Shown here: positions 17,500 through 22,974 of the stretch, piece after piece
How positions within the stretch are numbered: the first letter of the stretch is position 1
Layout of the letters: the number at the start of each line of letters is the position of its first letter
Assembly (NCBI GenBank): GCA_030610155.1
Contig: JAUWSG010000004.1
Span: 1 to 49,474 of the forward strand
Source: Gammaproteobacteria bacterium
Lineage (GTDB): Bacteria; Pseudomonadota; Gammaproteobacteria; SG8-11
Length of the DNA stretch: 49,474 nt
Direction of reading: 5' to 3'
Translations under genes and position numbers: made by a program
The notes under the pieces: model-generated
The model's input: only the letters and a program-made list of their open reading frames with translations
What the model was told of the DNA's origin: nothing
Databases searched by the model: none

Positions 17500-18909
17500 T
17501 TATGTGCTGTAATACATATCAAACTCGACCGGATGTGTGCTCATACGTATTCTTGTCACATCATCCATTTTCAGCGCGATATAAGCGTCGATCATATCGT
17601 CAGTAAATACACCGCCAGCCGTCAGGTACGCACGATCGTTATCCAGTGCTTCCAGCGCCTGTTCAAAGGAAGAGCAGACTGTTGGAATATCCTGGGCTTC
17701 TTCTGGTGGAAGGTCATAAAGATCCTTGTCCATAGGTTCGCCAGGGTGGATCTTGTTTTGTATTCCATCCAGGCCAGCCATTAACAGAGCCGAGAAGGCA
17801 AGGTATGGATTGGCAGTCGGATCCGGGAAGCGCACTTCGATACGCGTTGCTTTAGGATTAGCATCAAACGGAATACGAATAGACGCTGAACGGTTTCGAG
17901 CGGAGTATGCCAGCATAACAGGCGCTTCAAAACCCGGGACCAAACGTTTGTAGCTGTTTGTGCTCGCATTGGTTAGCGCGTTTAATGAGCGGGCATGTTT
18001 GATGATGCCGCCGATATAAAAAAGTGCGGTTTCGGACAGGCCTGCAGACTCATTGCCGGTAAAAACATTTTGCCCATCTTTGAAAATGGATTGATGAACA
18101 TGCATGCCGTTACCGTTGTCACCGACCAGAGGTTTAGGCATAAATGTGGCTGTTCTACCATAAGAATGTGCAACATTATGGACAACATATTTCAGGATTT
18201 GAGTTTCGTCTGCTTTACGAACCAGGCTGCTAAATCGTGTTCCGATTTCACATTGTCCTGCGGTTGCGACTTCATGGTGGTGTACTTCAACGGACAGACC
18301 CATTTCTTCCATTGCCAGGCACATTGCAGCTCGAATGTTATGCAATGAGTCAACAGGTGGAACAGGGAAATAACCGCCTTTTGCGCCTGGACGATGGCCC
18401 ATGTTGCCATCAGAGTAGACACGTTCAGTGTTCCATTCCGCTTCTTCTGAATCTACTTTATAAAATGCACCCGACATATCCGCACCCCAGCGAACATCAT
18501 CCAGAACAAAAAATTCAGGTTCCGGGCCGAAAAAAGATTCATCACCGATGCCGGTTGATTTCAGATAGGCTTCAGCGCGTTTAGCGACAGACCGTGGGTC
18601 ACGGCCATAACCTTGCATCGTGGAGGGCTCCAGGATATCGCAGGTGATGTTAATAGAAAGTTCATCTGAGAATGGATCCAGGACGGCGGTCTCGACGTCA
18701 GGCATGAGTACCATGTCAGATTCGTTAATGCCTTTCCAGCCAGCGATAGATGATCCGTCAAACATTTTGCCGTCTTTAAAGGTGTCTTCATCGACGATAC
18801 TTGCAGGAACAGACACGTGCTGTTCTTTACCTTTGGTATCTGTGAATCGAAAATCCACAAATTTAACATTTTTGTCTTTAATTAATTTTAAAATATTGCT
18901 GGCCGACAT
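17500..18909 (-). CDS. glnA: GlnA, type I glutamine synthetase
   Basis: Makes glutamine from glutamate, ammonia and ATP; entry point of ammonium assimilation. From the ATG at 18909 the protein has 469 residues, exactly the E. coli length; GGAGGA lies just upstream. Motifs: the latch region [32 protein letters not shown], the ATP loop [13 protein letters not shown], and the adenylylation site [10 protein letters not shown] with Tyr398, target of GlnE in this window. This marks it as GSI-beta. A sigma-54 promoter and an NtrC site lie upstream, a terminator downstream. Confidence 0.98.
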
Positions 18910-19252: not shown

Positions 19253-20404
19253 TTATTCGCAGAAGTAAACTTTAATTTTTTCGATATTTTTATCGGATTC
19301 AGCGAGCCGGGCAAATTTTTGCGAGATTTCATGCGCTTTTTTTGATGATTCCGCCAGGTGTAAGGGTAGCTGGATGCTGATGTGGATGTGTCCTCCCAGA
19401 TAATGCAATGTGACATTTTCAATGTCTTTTGATTCTTCAAACGCAGACCAGCGTTTTGCCAGCATGTCCAGGAGCTCACTGCGCGCAGGTAAATGGTTTG
19501 ATGGACGTGATGTTTCGTCATCTTCAGGGTCGATATGCACAGTAACATCATTGATGTCACTAAACTGTTCAGTTAACATCGCGCGGACTTTTTCACCAAT
19601 TTGATGCCCTTCCGATACGCTGATTTCAGGATCGACAATCACATGAACATCGACCAGCGCATCACTGCCCATACGTCGGGTTCGCAACATATGCAGGGCG
19701 CGTACCCCTTGTGTTTCCTTGATGGCCTGTTTGATTTTTTCGACATATTCAGCATCAAGTCCGGTATCAATTAATTCGCGAACACTTTTCCAGCTTAAAT
19801 TCCAGCCAATAATGGCGACCATAAAGGCAACACCCACTGCGGCCACTGCATCCAGATATTCCAGACCGGCCATGGAACCGATGATACCTATGATGACAAT
19901 AACGGAAGAAATAGCATCGGTACGGCTGTGCCAGGCATTGGCCCTCAATAATTCTGAATTTAATTTGCGCGCAGCCCGCATGGTGTACTGGTATATCGCT
20001 TCTTTGGATATTACGGATATTGCGGCAATGCCTAATGCGTAGAAACCGGGATGCATCAAGCGCTCCGGTTGAAATAAACGTAGTATGGCGTCCTGCGCGA
20101 TACCGCCTGAGACGGCGATCAGTATCAGCCCCAGTGCAACGGTCATCAGTGTTTCAATGCGACCATGTCCGTAAGGGTGCTCATCATCGGCTGCGCGACT
20201 GCCATGTTTAAAGGCCACCAGCACCATCAGGTCCGTCGCCAGATCTGATAATGAATGTATGCCGTCGGCGAGTAATGCCTGTGAGTTGTCGAGTAGCCCG
20301 ATTGTAATTTTGCCGACGCCCAGCAGTAAGTCGACGATAGAGCCGATGAGCGTTACTTTTCGCGCTTCCTGGTAACGTGCAATATTTGCGGGGGTGCCTG
20401 TCAT
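19253..20404 (-). CDS. Cation diffusion facilitator (FieF/MamB-like) metal exporter
   Basis: 383 residues. Six membrane helices in the first 210 residues, with metal-site motifs DGIHSLSDLATD near 47-58 (TM2) and HSRTDAISS near 158-166 (TM5). The C-terminal cytoplasmic CDF domain (HMLRTRRMGSDALVDVHVIVDP) is followed by about 90 extra residues with DVTVHIDPEDDE and a second ferredoxin-like stretch (NVTLHYLGGHIHISIQLPL). This extended tail is longer than in E. coli FieF (300 residues). Likely exports Zn2+, Fe2+ or a similar divalent ion; specificity not certain. It begins one base after the tusA-like stop, so it belongs to the PP-loop operon. Confidence 0.87.
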   Translation of the reverse strand: MTGTPANIARYQEARKVTLIGSIVDLLLGVGKITIGLLDNSQALLADGIHSLSDLATDLMVLVAFKHGSRAADDEHPYGHGRIETLMTVALGLILIAVSGGIAQDAILRLFQPERLMHPGFYALGIAAISVISKEAIYQYTMRAARKLNSELLRANAWHSRTDAISSVIVIIGIIGSMAGLEYLDAVAAVGVAFMVAIIGWNLSWKSVRELIDTGLDAEYVEKIKQAIKETQGVRALHMLRTRRMGSDALVDVHVIVDPEISVSEGHQIGEKVRAMLTEQFSDINDVTVHIDPEDDETSRPSNHLPARSELLDMLAKRWSAFEESKDIENVTLHYLGGHIHISIQLPLHLAESSKKAHEISQKFARLAESDKNIEKIKVYFCE

Positions 20405-20405
20405 A

Positions 20406-20642
20406 TCAGTTGTTCTGGTTGTCTACTCTGACCGTAATCACAATGTCGTTGTCCTTGTCTGCCATGCCAATGATTTCATGGCCATTGATTCTACACCATG
20501 CGGGAATATCATTTTTTGCGCCAGGATCGGTACAAATAACATCGACTGTATCGCCTTGTGCCAGTGTGGCAACAAAGTTCTGTGTTTTTATGACGGGCAT
20601 GGGGCAGAGTAAACGCCTGGCATCCAGAGTATGATGGCTCAT
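20406..20642 (-). CDS. TusA-family sulfur carrier
   Basis: Small 78-residue sulfurtransferase: the N-terminal motif LDARRLLCPMPVIKT holds the sulfur-carrying cysteine (Cys13) in the CPxP signature at the start of helix 1, followed by the beta-alpha-beta-alpha-beta-beta TusA fold (GDTVDVICTDPGAKNDIPAWC). The ATG at 20642 overlaps the stop of the PP-loop gene as ATGA, which fixes the start and implies coupled translation. TusA proteins pass persulfide sulfur to tRNA thiolation enzymes or to oxidation pathways; the coupling suggests delivery to the adjacent PP-loop protein. Confidence 0.92.
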   Translation of the reverse strand: MSHHTLDARRLLCPMPVIKTQNFVATLAQGDTVDVICTDPGAKNDIPAWCRINGHEIIGMADKDNDIVITVRVDNQNN

Positions 20643-21727
20643 ATGTACCACTCTTTAGGAATATCATCACTCGGTATGGGGGTGACATCCAGGGTAAATT
20701 CTTTTTTATCCGCTTGTCTCACCATGACTTTAACAGAGGATGCATCGCGACCATGACTGAATCGCGCAGTCAGCTGAGCGGCAAGTTTGATATCATCCTC
20801 GTTGGTTTTACCGTCAATCAGGACGAATGGGCCGGTATGGCTGAGTGTATACATGGAGGTAAATTGATTTTTATAACCTTCCATGAAATTGTTTTCGCCT
20901 TCTTCGCGACCGACAATGATTTTAAAATGCGGGCGCGGCCGCAGATGACGCCCCATTTTCAGTAACATGATGTCGTCAAATTCATATTTCCTCTCGCCCT
21001 GGGCTTGCCACAGGTCAGCCAGTTTGACGGAATAGGATTTGTCTGTCAGGAAGCAGCATCCGCCTGCAGGTTGTGCGTAATCAGAAAATCCAAACTCGCT
21101 GGCAAGTTTGAATTGCGGTTTGCGGGAGCGTCCGTTGAAGCCATGCATTTTTTCACGGTCGATCCAACCCTGTTTTTCAGGGTAGGTTGCGGGAAGGTTT
21201 TTTGCGCACAGTGGCCGTACCAGTAAATCATTGGCGCCTGACTCGCGGGCAACAACAGGCATAGTGTCTTTGCGTTGAGACATCGGGCGTTGTCCAACGA
21301 CTTCGCCGGTGATAATGAAATCGAAATCGTTTTCTTTTAACCATTCCATGGCTTTGCTGACCATAAAGCATTTGCAATCCAGGCAGGGATTGAGGTTTGC
21401 ACCATAACCATGTTTCGGGTTGATCACGACGTCTTTGTAATCTTCGATCACATCGATGATATGTAATTTTATGCCAAGCTGTTCAGCTGACCATAATGCA
21501 TTGTTGCGCTTTGGTTTGGCCTTGTCCTTTTTGCGTATTGCGTGTGTATGACCTTCGACACAAAAACCGGTGAAGAAATTGATACCTTCAACATGGATAC
21601 CTTGTTCTATCATGACGCGGGCGGCCAGGAGTGAATCCAGGCCGCCTGATATAAGCGCAACGGCTTTTCGCTGTTTTGTTTGCTTGTTTTGAGACATATT
21701 GTTTTGAGATATATTGTTTTGAGACAT
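20639..21727 (-). CDS. MnmA-like PP-loop ATPase, putative (t)RNA thiolase
   Basis: 362 residues. The pyrophosphatase loop SGGLDS (27-32) activates a substrate by adenylation. Cys115/Cys118/Cys120 in NPCLDCKCFM and the pair GGCC (222-225) resemble the two catalytic cysteine sites of 2-thiouridylase MnmA. The C-terminal third, with MGRHLRPRPHFKIIVGREEGEN, looks like the NFACT-R_1-type domain found on some PP-loop proteins and often annotated 'tRNA methyltransferase' in error. It is not MnmA itself, which lacks this tail. The gene overlaps tusA by four bases, making it the probable acceptor of TusA sulfur. The exact substrate (tRNA or other) is unknown. Confidence 0.8.
   Translation of the reverse strand: MSQNNISQNNMSQNKQTKQRKAVALISGGLDSLLAARVMIEQGIHVEGINFFTGFCVEGHTHAIRKKDKAKPKRNNALWSAEQLGIKLHIIDVIEDYKDVVINPKHGYGANLNPCLDCKCFMVSKAMEWLKENDFDFIITGEVVGQRPMSQRKDTMPVVARESGANDLLVRPLCAKNLPATYPEKQGWIDREKMHGFNGRSRKPQFKLASEFGFSDYAQPAGGCCFLTDKSYSVKLADLWQAQGERKYEFDDIMLLKMGRHLRPRPHFKIIVGREEGENNFMEGYKNQFTSMYTLSHTGPFVLIDGKTNEDDIKLAAQLTARFSHGRDASSVKVMVRQADKKEFTLDVTPIPSDDIPKEWYI
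21683..21727 (-). repeat. Three 15-bp repeats at the 5' end of the PP-loop gene
   Basis: Minus-strand units ATGTCTCAAAACAAT, ATATCTCAAAACAAT and ATGTCTCAAAACAAG run in frame from the start codon, encoding MSQNN-ISQNN-MSQNK. Units 1 and 3 both supply an ATG, so the protein could start at residue 1 or 11. Neither has a clear ribosome-binding site. The conserved domain begins after the repeat. Confidence 0.8.
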
Positions 21728-21886: not shown

Positions 21887-22459
21887 TTAATGTTTCTTGT
21901 GGCTGATAATGCTTGCAGGCAAGGCGCTGCTTGTTTCCAGCAGGGTTTTGTATGCGTGTTGGCTCTTTGTTTCATCCCAGAGTTCAAACGCATGCAGCGG
22001 GTCAGTCAACTCATGGTCACTGCCTAAAGTACGTATAGTCCGCAATACATCCATCAATGAAACAAATGATTCAGACAATTGCGCATACATATTGGCGAGA
22101 CTATGACGTAATGATCCGGACAGGTCTGAATACGCACCTCTTCCAAGATTGACATAATAGCTATTTTTAAGCTGTCTGCGTTCGGCAAGTTTGGGAAACA
22201 GGCCGGAAAACAGCAGGCATTGATCGCCTACGTCACGTAACAGTTCCTGTCGTATTGTGCCGCTTGAATTTTGGCAGTTAAGATAATCAAGGGCGAGTAT
22301 TTTAGATAGCGCAGAAGGTTTGTCTGTAAAACGCATAAGCAAAAAAACAAGATAACTCTCGAGGTCATGGTCAAGCTTGATGTCCATCGCTTCTTCAGCA
22401 TCACAAACCAGCTTATGCCATAGTGCAGTCGGTGTAGGTTGTAACTCAAGTATACTCAT
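21887..22459 (-). CDS. Conserved protein of unknown function (190 aa)
   Basis: I do not recognise a named domain. The 190 residues are mostly helical, without signal peptide or membrane segment; a repeated-looking core LESYLVFLLMRFTDKPSAL and LLRDVGDQCLLFSGLFPK reads like a conserved motif block of a small cytoplasmic protein. A strong AGGAGG lies nine bases before the ATG, so the start is secure and expression is probably good. It is followed after 159 bp by the PP-loop/tusA/CDF operon on the same strand and may be transcribed with it. Confidence 0.75.
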   Translation of the reverse strand: MSILELQPTPTALWHKLVCDAEEAMDIKLDHDLESYLVFLLMRFTDKPSALSKILALDYLNCQNSSGTIRQELLRDVGDQCLLFSGLFPKLAERRQLKNSYYVNLGRGAYSDLSGSLRHSLANMYAQLSESFVSLMDVLRTIRTLGSDHELTDPLHAFELWDETKSQHAYKTLLETSSALPASIISHKKH

Positions 22460-22618
22460 GAGGCGTCCTCCTCTTAAGTACTACTATCGGCCAAGCCATT
22501 GATTTCTTTAGCGGCAAAGCGACCGTGTCCTGCTATCGCCCCTTACCTGCATCCCTGTAGGCAACGGTGGGGAGGCCTTTTACCACGGGGGGAGGATGAT
22601 ATATAAGACCGAAGATCA

Positions 22619-22933
22619 AGACCAAAATTTACCACGGGGAACACGGGGAACACGGGGCGCACGGGGAGGAAAAATAATAAAAACGATTGTTTTGCCACGG
22701 AGGTCACGGAGAAAATCTTTTTGGCTTAAGTTCCCTCTCCCCTTTGGGGAGAGGGTGAGGGGAATGTGTAAGCGTGGGGCACAAAATTCAAAAGCCCCCT
22801 CATCCTAGTCGCTTACGGCATCCATGCCTCACGCGACATAAGCACATCCCTGTGCAAAACCTTCTCCCCAAAGGGGAGAAGGAACTTAAAACCAAAAATT
22901 TGCGCCCCGTGTTCCCCGTGGTAAATTTTGGTC
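22619..22933. repeat. Three-layer nested inverted repeat, copy B (asymmetric)
   Basis: Outer arms: GACCAAAATTTACCACGGGG at 22619 onward and its complement at 22905-22933, 29 bp paired. The left arm has four CACGGGG units, the right arm two. The middle CACGGAG layer is present only on the left (22692-22716). Two inner palindromes follow: CCCTCTCCCCTTTGGGGAGA (22733-22755) and CCTTCTCCCCAAAGGGGAGA (22860-22882). An extra partial unit lies at 22579-22595. It fills most of the 514-bp gap between plsY and the 190-aa gene; the remainder holds only that gene's ribosome-binding site. Confidence 0.88.
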
Positions 22934-22974
22934 TTGATCCTGGTTTTCCGGTCTTGATGTCGCCCGCAGTTAAG

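Follow-up and report, generated by a model that had tools for sequence, protein, structure and literature searches.

4-Thiouridine (s4U) at position 8 of tRNA is the near-UV sensor of bacteria and the textbook product of ThiI. In E. coli, a second PP-loop enzyme, MnmA, is fed by TusA through TusBCD/TusE. From domain architecture and gene neighbourhood, Burroughs and Aravind (writing in RNA Biol in 2014) reportedly predicted a further pathway in which NFACT-R and TusA proteins carry out 4-thiouridylation. For MnmA, a [4Fe-4S] mechanism has been proposed, with Asp99, Cys102 and Cys199 as catalytic or proposed cluster ligand residues (PMC11784392). The modification can also be erased, since RudS, a TudS-DUF1722 fusion, was shown by experiment to strip tRNA of s4U; all six RudS proteins tested, taken from ThiI-type hosts and a phage only, were active on s4U (PMC11417400). 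The same study counted 884 genomes with RudS, 637 of them with ThiI, and left two ThiI-less groups unexplained (PMC11417400).

The window considered here is a stretch of 49,474 nucleotides from a gammaproteobacterial assembly. Its minus strand encodes a 362-aa protein that matches PP-loop and NFACT-R_2 profiles and is predicted to be a tRNA 4-thiouridine synthase (20639..21727), a 78-aa TusA-family sulfur carrier (20406..20642; PF01206, 3e-22) and a 383-aa cation diffusion facilitator or CDF (19253..20404; PF01545 (Cation_efflux) and PF16916 (ZT_dimer)). The ATG of the TusA gene at 20642 overlaps the stop codon of the PP-loop gene as ATGA. The TusA stop lies at 20406 and the CDF gene begins with an ATG at 20404, one base on. 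Thus, the three-gene operon described in an earlier note on this DNA is real, with both the overlap and the one-base gap confirmed. Downstream of the CDF gene lies glnA (17500-18906).

The amino terminal part of the PP-loop protein presents an SGGLDS motif (residues 27-32; 21632..21649, minus strand) that is invariant in a 37-sequence alignment. One homologue without this motif was encountered (L149, genome G088) and is probably decaying or misassembled. The carboxy terminal part (residues 259-361; 20645..20953, minus strand) is a predicted RNA-binding domain, NFACT-R_2 (PF18297, 8.1e-36), which scored 122.8 bits against a gathering threshold of 26.9 and whose profile also matches RqcH. This assignment replaces the "NFACT-R_1-like" domain of the earlier note, which had also used the term "thiolase" in error for what would be a thiolation enzyme.

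Along with the SGGxDS motif, the protein has the catalytic cysteines expected of a PP-loop RNA thiolase. In an alignment to E. coli MnmA, Cys115, Cys118 and Cys225 occupy the positions of Asp99, Cys102 and Cys199. The Cys115-x-x-Cys118 site (21374..21385, minus strand), aligned with Asp99-x-x-Cys102, is present in 100% of 148 homologues and is kept in Fusobacteria. Within Cys224-Cys225 (21053..21058, minus strand), conservation among the same 148 sequences is 98% and 100%, respectively, and one Cys of the pair is retained in Fusobacteria. The earlier suggestion of MnmA-like cysteine sites is upheld for these four residues; the Cys120 that it included is unconserved, and it overlooked Cys56 (21560..21562, minus strand), which is 98% conserved among the 148 homologues, in Pseudomonadota, and absent in Fusobacteria. 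Of the conserved cysteines, fusobacterial homologues retain only the positions of Cys115, Cys118 and Cys225. The arrangement corresponds to the CxxC plus Cys form of C-type MnmA (PMC11784392). A CxxC with a distant third cysteine, all invariant, is also shared with the Fe-S-dependent tRNA thiolases TtuA, TtcA and archaeal U8 sulfurases; however, these have other RNA-binding domains.

An AlphaFold2 model of the protein had a mean pLDDT of 88.8. A fold search with this model matched the PP-loop part to MnmA, LarE, ThiI and TtuA, and the NFACT-R part to FBPS/RqcH. Global TM-scores were low, as expected if the combination of PP-loop and NFACT-R_2 has no solved structure. With LarE among the best PP-loop matches, the protein might instead insert sulfur into a small molecule or cofactor, with only an indirect link to RudS. 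Such a role is extremely improbable, since an RNA-binding NFACT-R_2 domain belongs to the family and the s4U eraser RudS tracks the protein across families, as described below.

Similarity scores place the protein outside both described enzymes. The Pfam PP-loop models of ThiI and MnmA score it nearly equally (44.5 and 43.7 bits) and do not separate them. The ThiI equivalog TIGR00342 gave 50.9 bits for the protein and 43.7 bits in a genome search against a cut-off of 264.5, with the match confined to the PP-loop part (residues 19-175, 1e-13), and a Pfam analysis detected neither a THUMP nor a rhodanese domain. Where ThiI has a THUMP and, in its E. coli type, a rhodanese domain, the protein has NFACT-R_2 and a partner TusA. 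Against the MnmA equivalog NF001138 it reached 44.4 bits (cut-off 284), and a separate MnmA in the host genome scored 472.7 bits. The C-terminal domains of MnmA are replaced by NFACT-R_2. From these scores, from the coexistence with MnmA and from the exclusion of ThiI detailed below, a canonical MnmA or ThiI can be ruled out. The view that this is a thiolation enzyme of neither kind, which had been put forward from the DNA sequence, is therefore supported.

The TusA protein scored 78.7 bits against its family profile PF01206 (threshold 28.6) and 50 bits against the E. coli-type TusA equivalog NF001423, below the cut-off of 78. Its predicted persulfide-carrying residue, Cys13 (20604..20606, minus strand), lies in the sequence LLCPMP and is more than 90% conserved in 127 aligned TusA proteins. 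The PP-loop and TusA genes are adjacent in 98 of 110 near relatives, a set that includes some duplicates and in which several of the 12 loci lacking an adjacent TusA stop at a contig edge. Of 39 gammaproteobacteria chosen for their diversity, 29 show this adjacency, as do 21 of 26 genomes from beyond the Gammaproteobacteria. Since it recurs across families and classes, the gene order is far beyond chance and is no curiosity of one genome. All five genomes of the host's order carry the PP-loop gene, and the loci that were read in detail have the PP-loop/TusA/CDF order.

This conserved adjacency supports the earlier proposal that the translationally coupled TusA is a probable dedicated sulfur donor. 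The host genome has two further TusA genes, one adjoining a DsrE-like gene and the other a YeeE/YedE-like transporter (neighbours judged by eye), an arrangement in line with a dedicated role for the TusA of this operon. An adjacent TusA is absent in 10 of the 39 diverse gammaproteobacteria and in Fusobacteria, so a TusA gene next to that of the enzyme is not a requirement. In one 1.4-Mb genome (L166, G032), which shares its genus with two carriers, the PP-loop gene is broken by in-frame stops and the TusA and CDF genes persist. The enzyme was apparently lost recently and its carrier retained, which suggests that this TusA may have other clients.

The CDF protein is a clear member of its superfamily (TIGR01297, 251.1 bits against a cut-off of 82.35), and the gene is found at the locus in 81 of 110 near relatives. 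It has been suggested that a metal exporter at this position points to metal sensitivity of the sulfur relay. The CDF would then be a functional part of the relay that guards it against metals, and the retention of the gene order in 81 of 110 near relatives and in members of the host's order with readable loci is compatible with such a role. In many genomes, however, both among near relatives and among the diverse gammaproteobacteria, PP-loop and TusA genes are followed directly by glnA without a CDF, and glnA is about as conserved a neighbour as the CDF itself. A part for the CDF in the relay is thus quite unlikely, and the special role proposed for it is unsupported. The CDF is a common and dispensable neighbour outside the thiolation system as assigned here; since it is often missing and TusA is then followed directly by glnA, the consistent partner is TusA.

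The distribution of the PP-loop/NFACT-R_2 protein is complementary to that of ThiI. The class sample comprised 276 gammaproteobacterial genomes with a completeness of 90% or more, the host excepted; 140 had the protein, 20 had canonical ThiI and none had both. In a phylum sample of 299 genomes, a few of which are shared with the class sample, the corresponding numbers were 34, 98 and none. Neither these counts nor those for RudS given below are corrected for the species tree, and because the genomes are not independent, the simple P values (Fisher, 3e-7 and 8e-7) are too optimistic; more weight falls on the fact that no exception occurred. The choice of threshold is immaterial because bit scores for the protein in the class sample are bimodal, either above 380 or below 40, bar one second, partial copy. 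In the host genome, whose assembly is only 85% complete, a canonical MnmA was found but no ThiI of the canonical type. Canonical ThiI was likewise not found in 12 further genomes reached via named loci, nor in a 2.1-Mb Fusobacterium vincentii record. Methylomonas koyamae, Thiohalobacter thiocyanaticus and Sedimenticola selenatireducens are cultured carriers of the gene in which canonical ThiI was not detected. MnmA, in contrast, accompanied the protein in all 80 genomes tested, in 78 of them above the cut-off. It follows that the protein is not an MnmA substitute and that ThiI is what it excludes.

If the PP-loop/NFACT-R_2 protein makes s4U, RudS would be expected with it and not in genomes missing both synthases. 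In the class sample, RudS was present in 67 of 140 genomes with the protein, 10 of 20 with ThiI and 0 of 116 with neither. The phylum sample gave 16 of 34, 68 of 98 and 0 of 167, respectively, and included RudS in 15 of 30 carriers of the protein outside the Gammaproteobacteria. The expectation held with zero exceptions. All 12 RudS loci that were retrieved encode complete TudS-DUF1722 fusions; 11 of these loci belong to genomes that also have the PP-loop/NFACT-R_2 protein. RudS was never found beside the PP-loop gene in the fetched flanks from near relatives, diverse gammaproteobacteria and genomes outside the class.

Both the gene order and the pattern of RudS and ThiI might reflect shared ancestry without any functional linkage, given that the samples are phylogenetically non-independent and that the 80 named loci are nearest matches. 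By family, RudS was present in 50 of 79 against 0 of 60. Within families that mix carriers and non-carriers of the protein, it was found in 5 of 10 against 0 of 12 genomes (stratified exact P = 0.02, with few contrasts), and with ThiI families added in 29 of 38 against 0 of 31 (stratified exact P = 6e-9). These within-family contrasts, for the protein alone as for either synthase, point in the direction seen in the two samples, where no exception occurred among 276 and 299 genomes from numerous families in at least two classes. Ancestry alone is therefore a very improbable account.

A different concern is the position or atom that is thiolated. The active-site cysteines align with those of MnmA, a 2-thiolation enzyme, and because all RudS proteins assayed were those of ThiI-type hosts or a phage, the substrate of RudS in hosts of the PP-loop/NFACT-R_2 protein is itself an inference. 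The enzyme could then thiolate a different site or atom in RNA (e.g., another s2U, s2C or an rRNA base), with RudS removing that mark in these hosts. This is considered unlikely in light of the strict exclusion with ThiI and not with MnmA, of a RudS architecture that is shared by both groups and always comes with one or the other enzyme, and of the activity on s4U of all six RudS proteins tested (PMC11417400).

From these comparisons, the PP-loop/NFACT-R_2 protein is probably a ThiI-independent, ThiI-replacing tRNA s4U synthase, presumably acting at U8, that is fed by its own TusA. The earlier description of an unassigned thiolation stands as regards the type of enzyme, and the reaction can now be assigned to tRNA 4-thiouridine with good confidence from ThiI exclusion and RudS co-occurrence. 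On a wider scale, it is likely that a large share of Pseudomonadota, together with Fusobacteria, make s4U without ThiI by means of this MnmA-like enzyme, usually with a dedicated TusA. At least within Pseudomonadota, this would explain the bacteria that the 2024 study found to have RudS and no ThiI.

As a mechanism, we infer that NFACT-R_2 would bind tRNA in place of the THUMP/NFLD module of ThiI, and that the PP-loop would use ATP to adenylate the uridine, presumably U8. A cysteine desulfurase would charge Cys13 of TusA with a persulfide, and TusA would supply this sulfur in place of the rhodanese domain of ThiI or of direct transfer from the desulfurase. The Cys115/Cys118/Cys225 site may then pass the sulfur to C4 of the adenylated uridine. 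For this step it may carry a persulfide or, in line with a proposal made for C-type MnmA, a [4Fe-4S] cluster. For the loci without an adjacent TusA (10 of 39 diverse loci, and Fusobacteria), an unlinked TusA may supply the sulfur, or a desulfurase may do so directly.

A literature search for NFACT-R with TusA or 4-thiouridine identified no experimental study, nor did it yield nucleoside data for a carrier of the PP-loop/NFACT-R_2 gene. To call this an undescribed system, as the earlier note did, is too strong. The pathway attributed to Burroughs and Aravind is said to link a PP-loop and NFACT-R protein to TusA with the same predicted product, a description that this locus matches, and the idea itself is probably not new. 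ThiI exclusion and RudS co-occurrence go beyond that prediction; as far as could be found, this evidence, the coexistence with MnmA and the scale of the distribution are new. Genome comparison now lends strong support to an earlier prediction, that of a second route to a known nucleoside which does not require ThiI.

Should this prove correct, the question of why RudS occurs without ThiI (PMC11417400) would be answered for Pseudomonadota. In addition, s4U would be predicted for roughly half of the gammaproteobacterial genomes sampled, although a search for ThiI alone would call it absent there. The system would also be an example of an s4U enzyme supplied by TusA, and one in which Fe-S and persulfide chemistries of thiolation could be compared directly. 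A function would also be available for proteins labelled 'MnmA/TRMU family' or '7-cyano-7-deazaguanine synthase'. These labels are carried by the homologues of Haliovirga abyssi and Fusobacterium animalis (L217 and L218), which have no adjacent TusA, and are likely wrong. A Fusobacterium homologue adjoins sepF.

With respect to mobile elements, no phage-borne copies of the PP-loop/NFACT-R_2 gene were found, and plasmid records gave only three matches to the protein, all fusobacterial. RudS homologues are present on 279 PLSDB plasmid records, 174 of which are typed as conjugative, mostly from Klebsiella and Escherichia (e.g., NZ_CP055164.1 and NZ_CP147051.1). Plasmid RudS may thus be considered a putative mobile eraser of tRNA 4-thiouridine.

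Directly upstream of the PP-loop gene in the window is a 190-aa ORF (21887-22459, minus strand) that has no Pfam or NCBIfam match and is kept in 50 of 110 related loci. Beyond it lies plsY, and a non-coding stretch between the two (22600-22960) contains CACGGGGAACACGGGG-like and CTCTCCCC/GGGGAGAG-like repeats.
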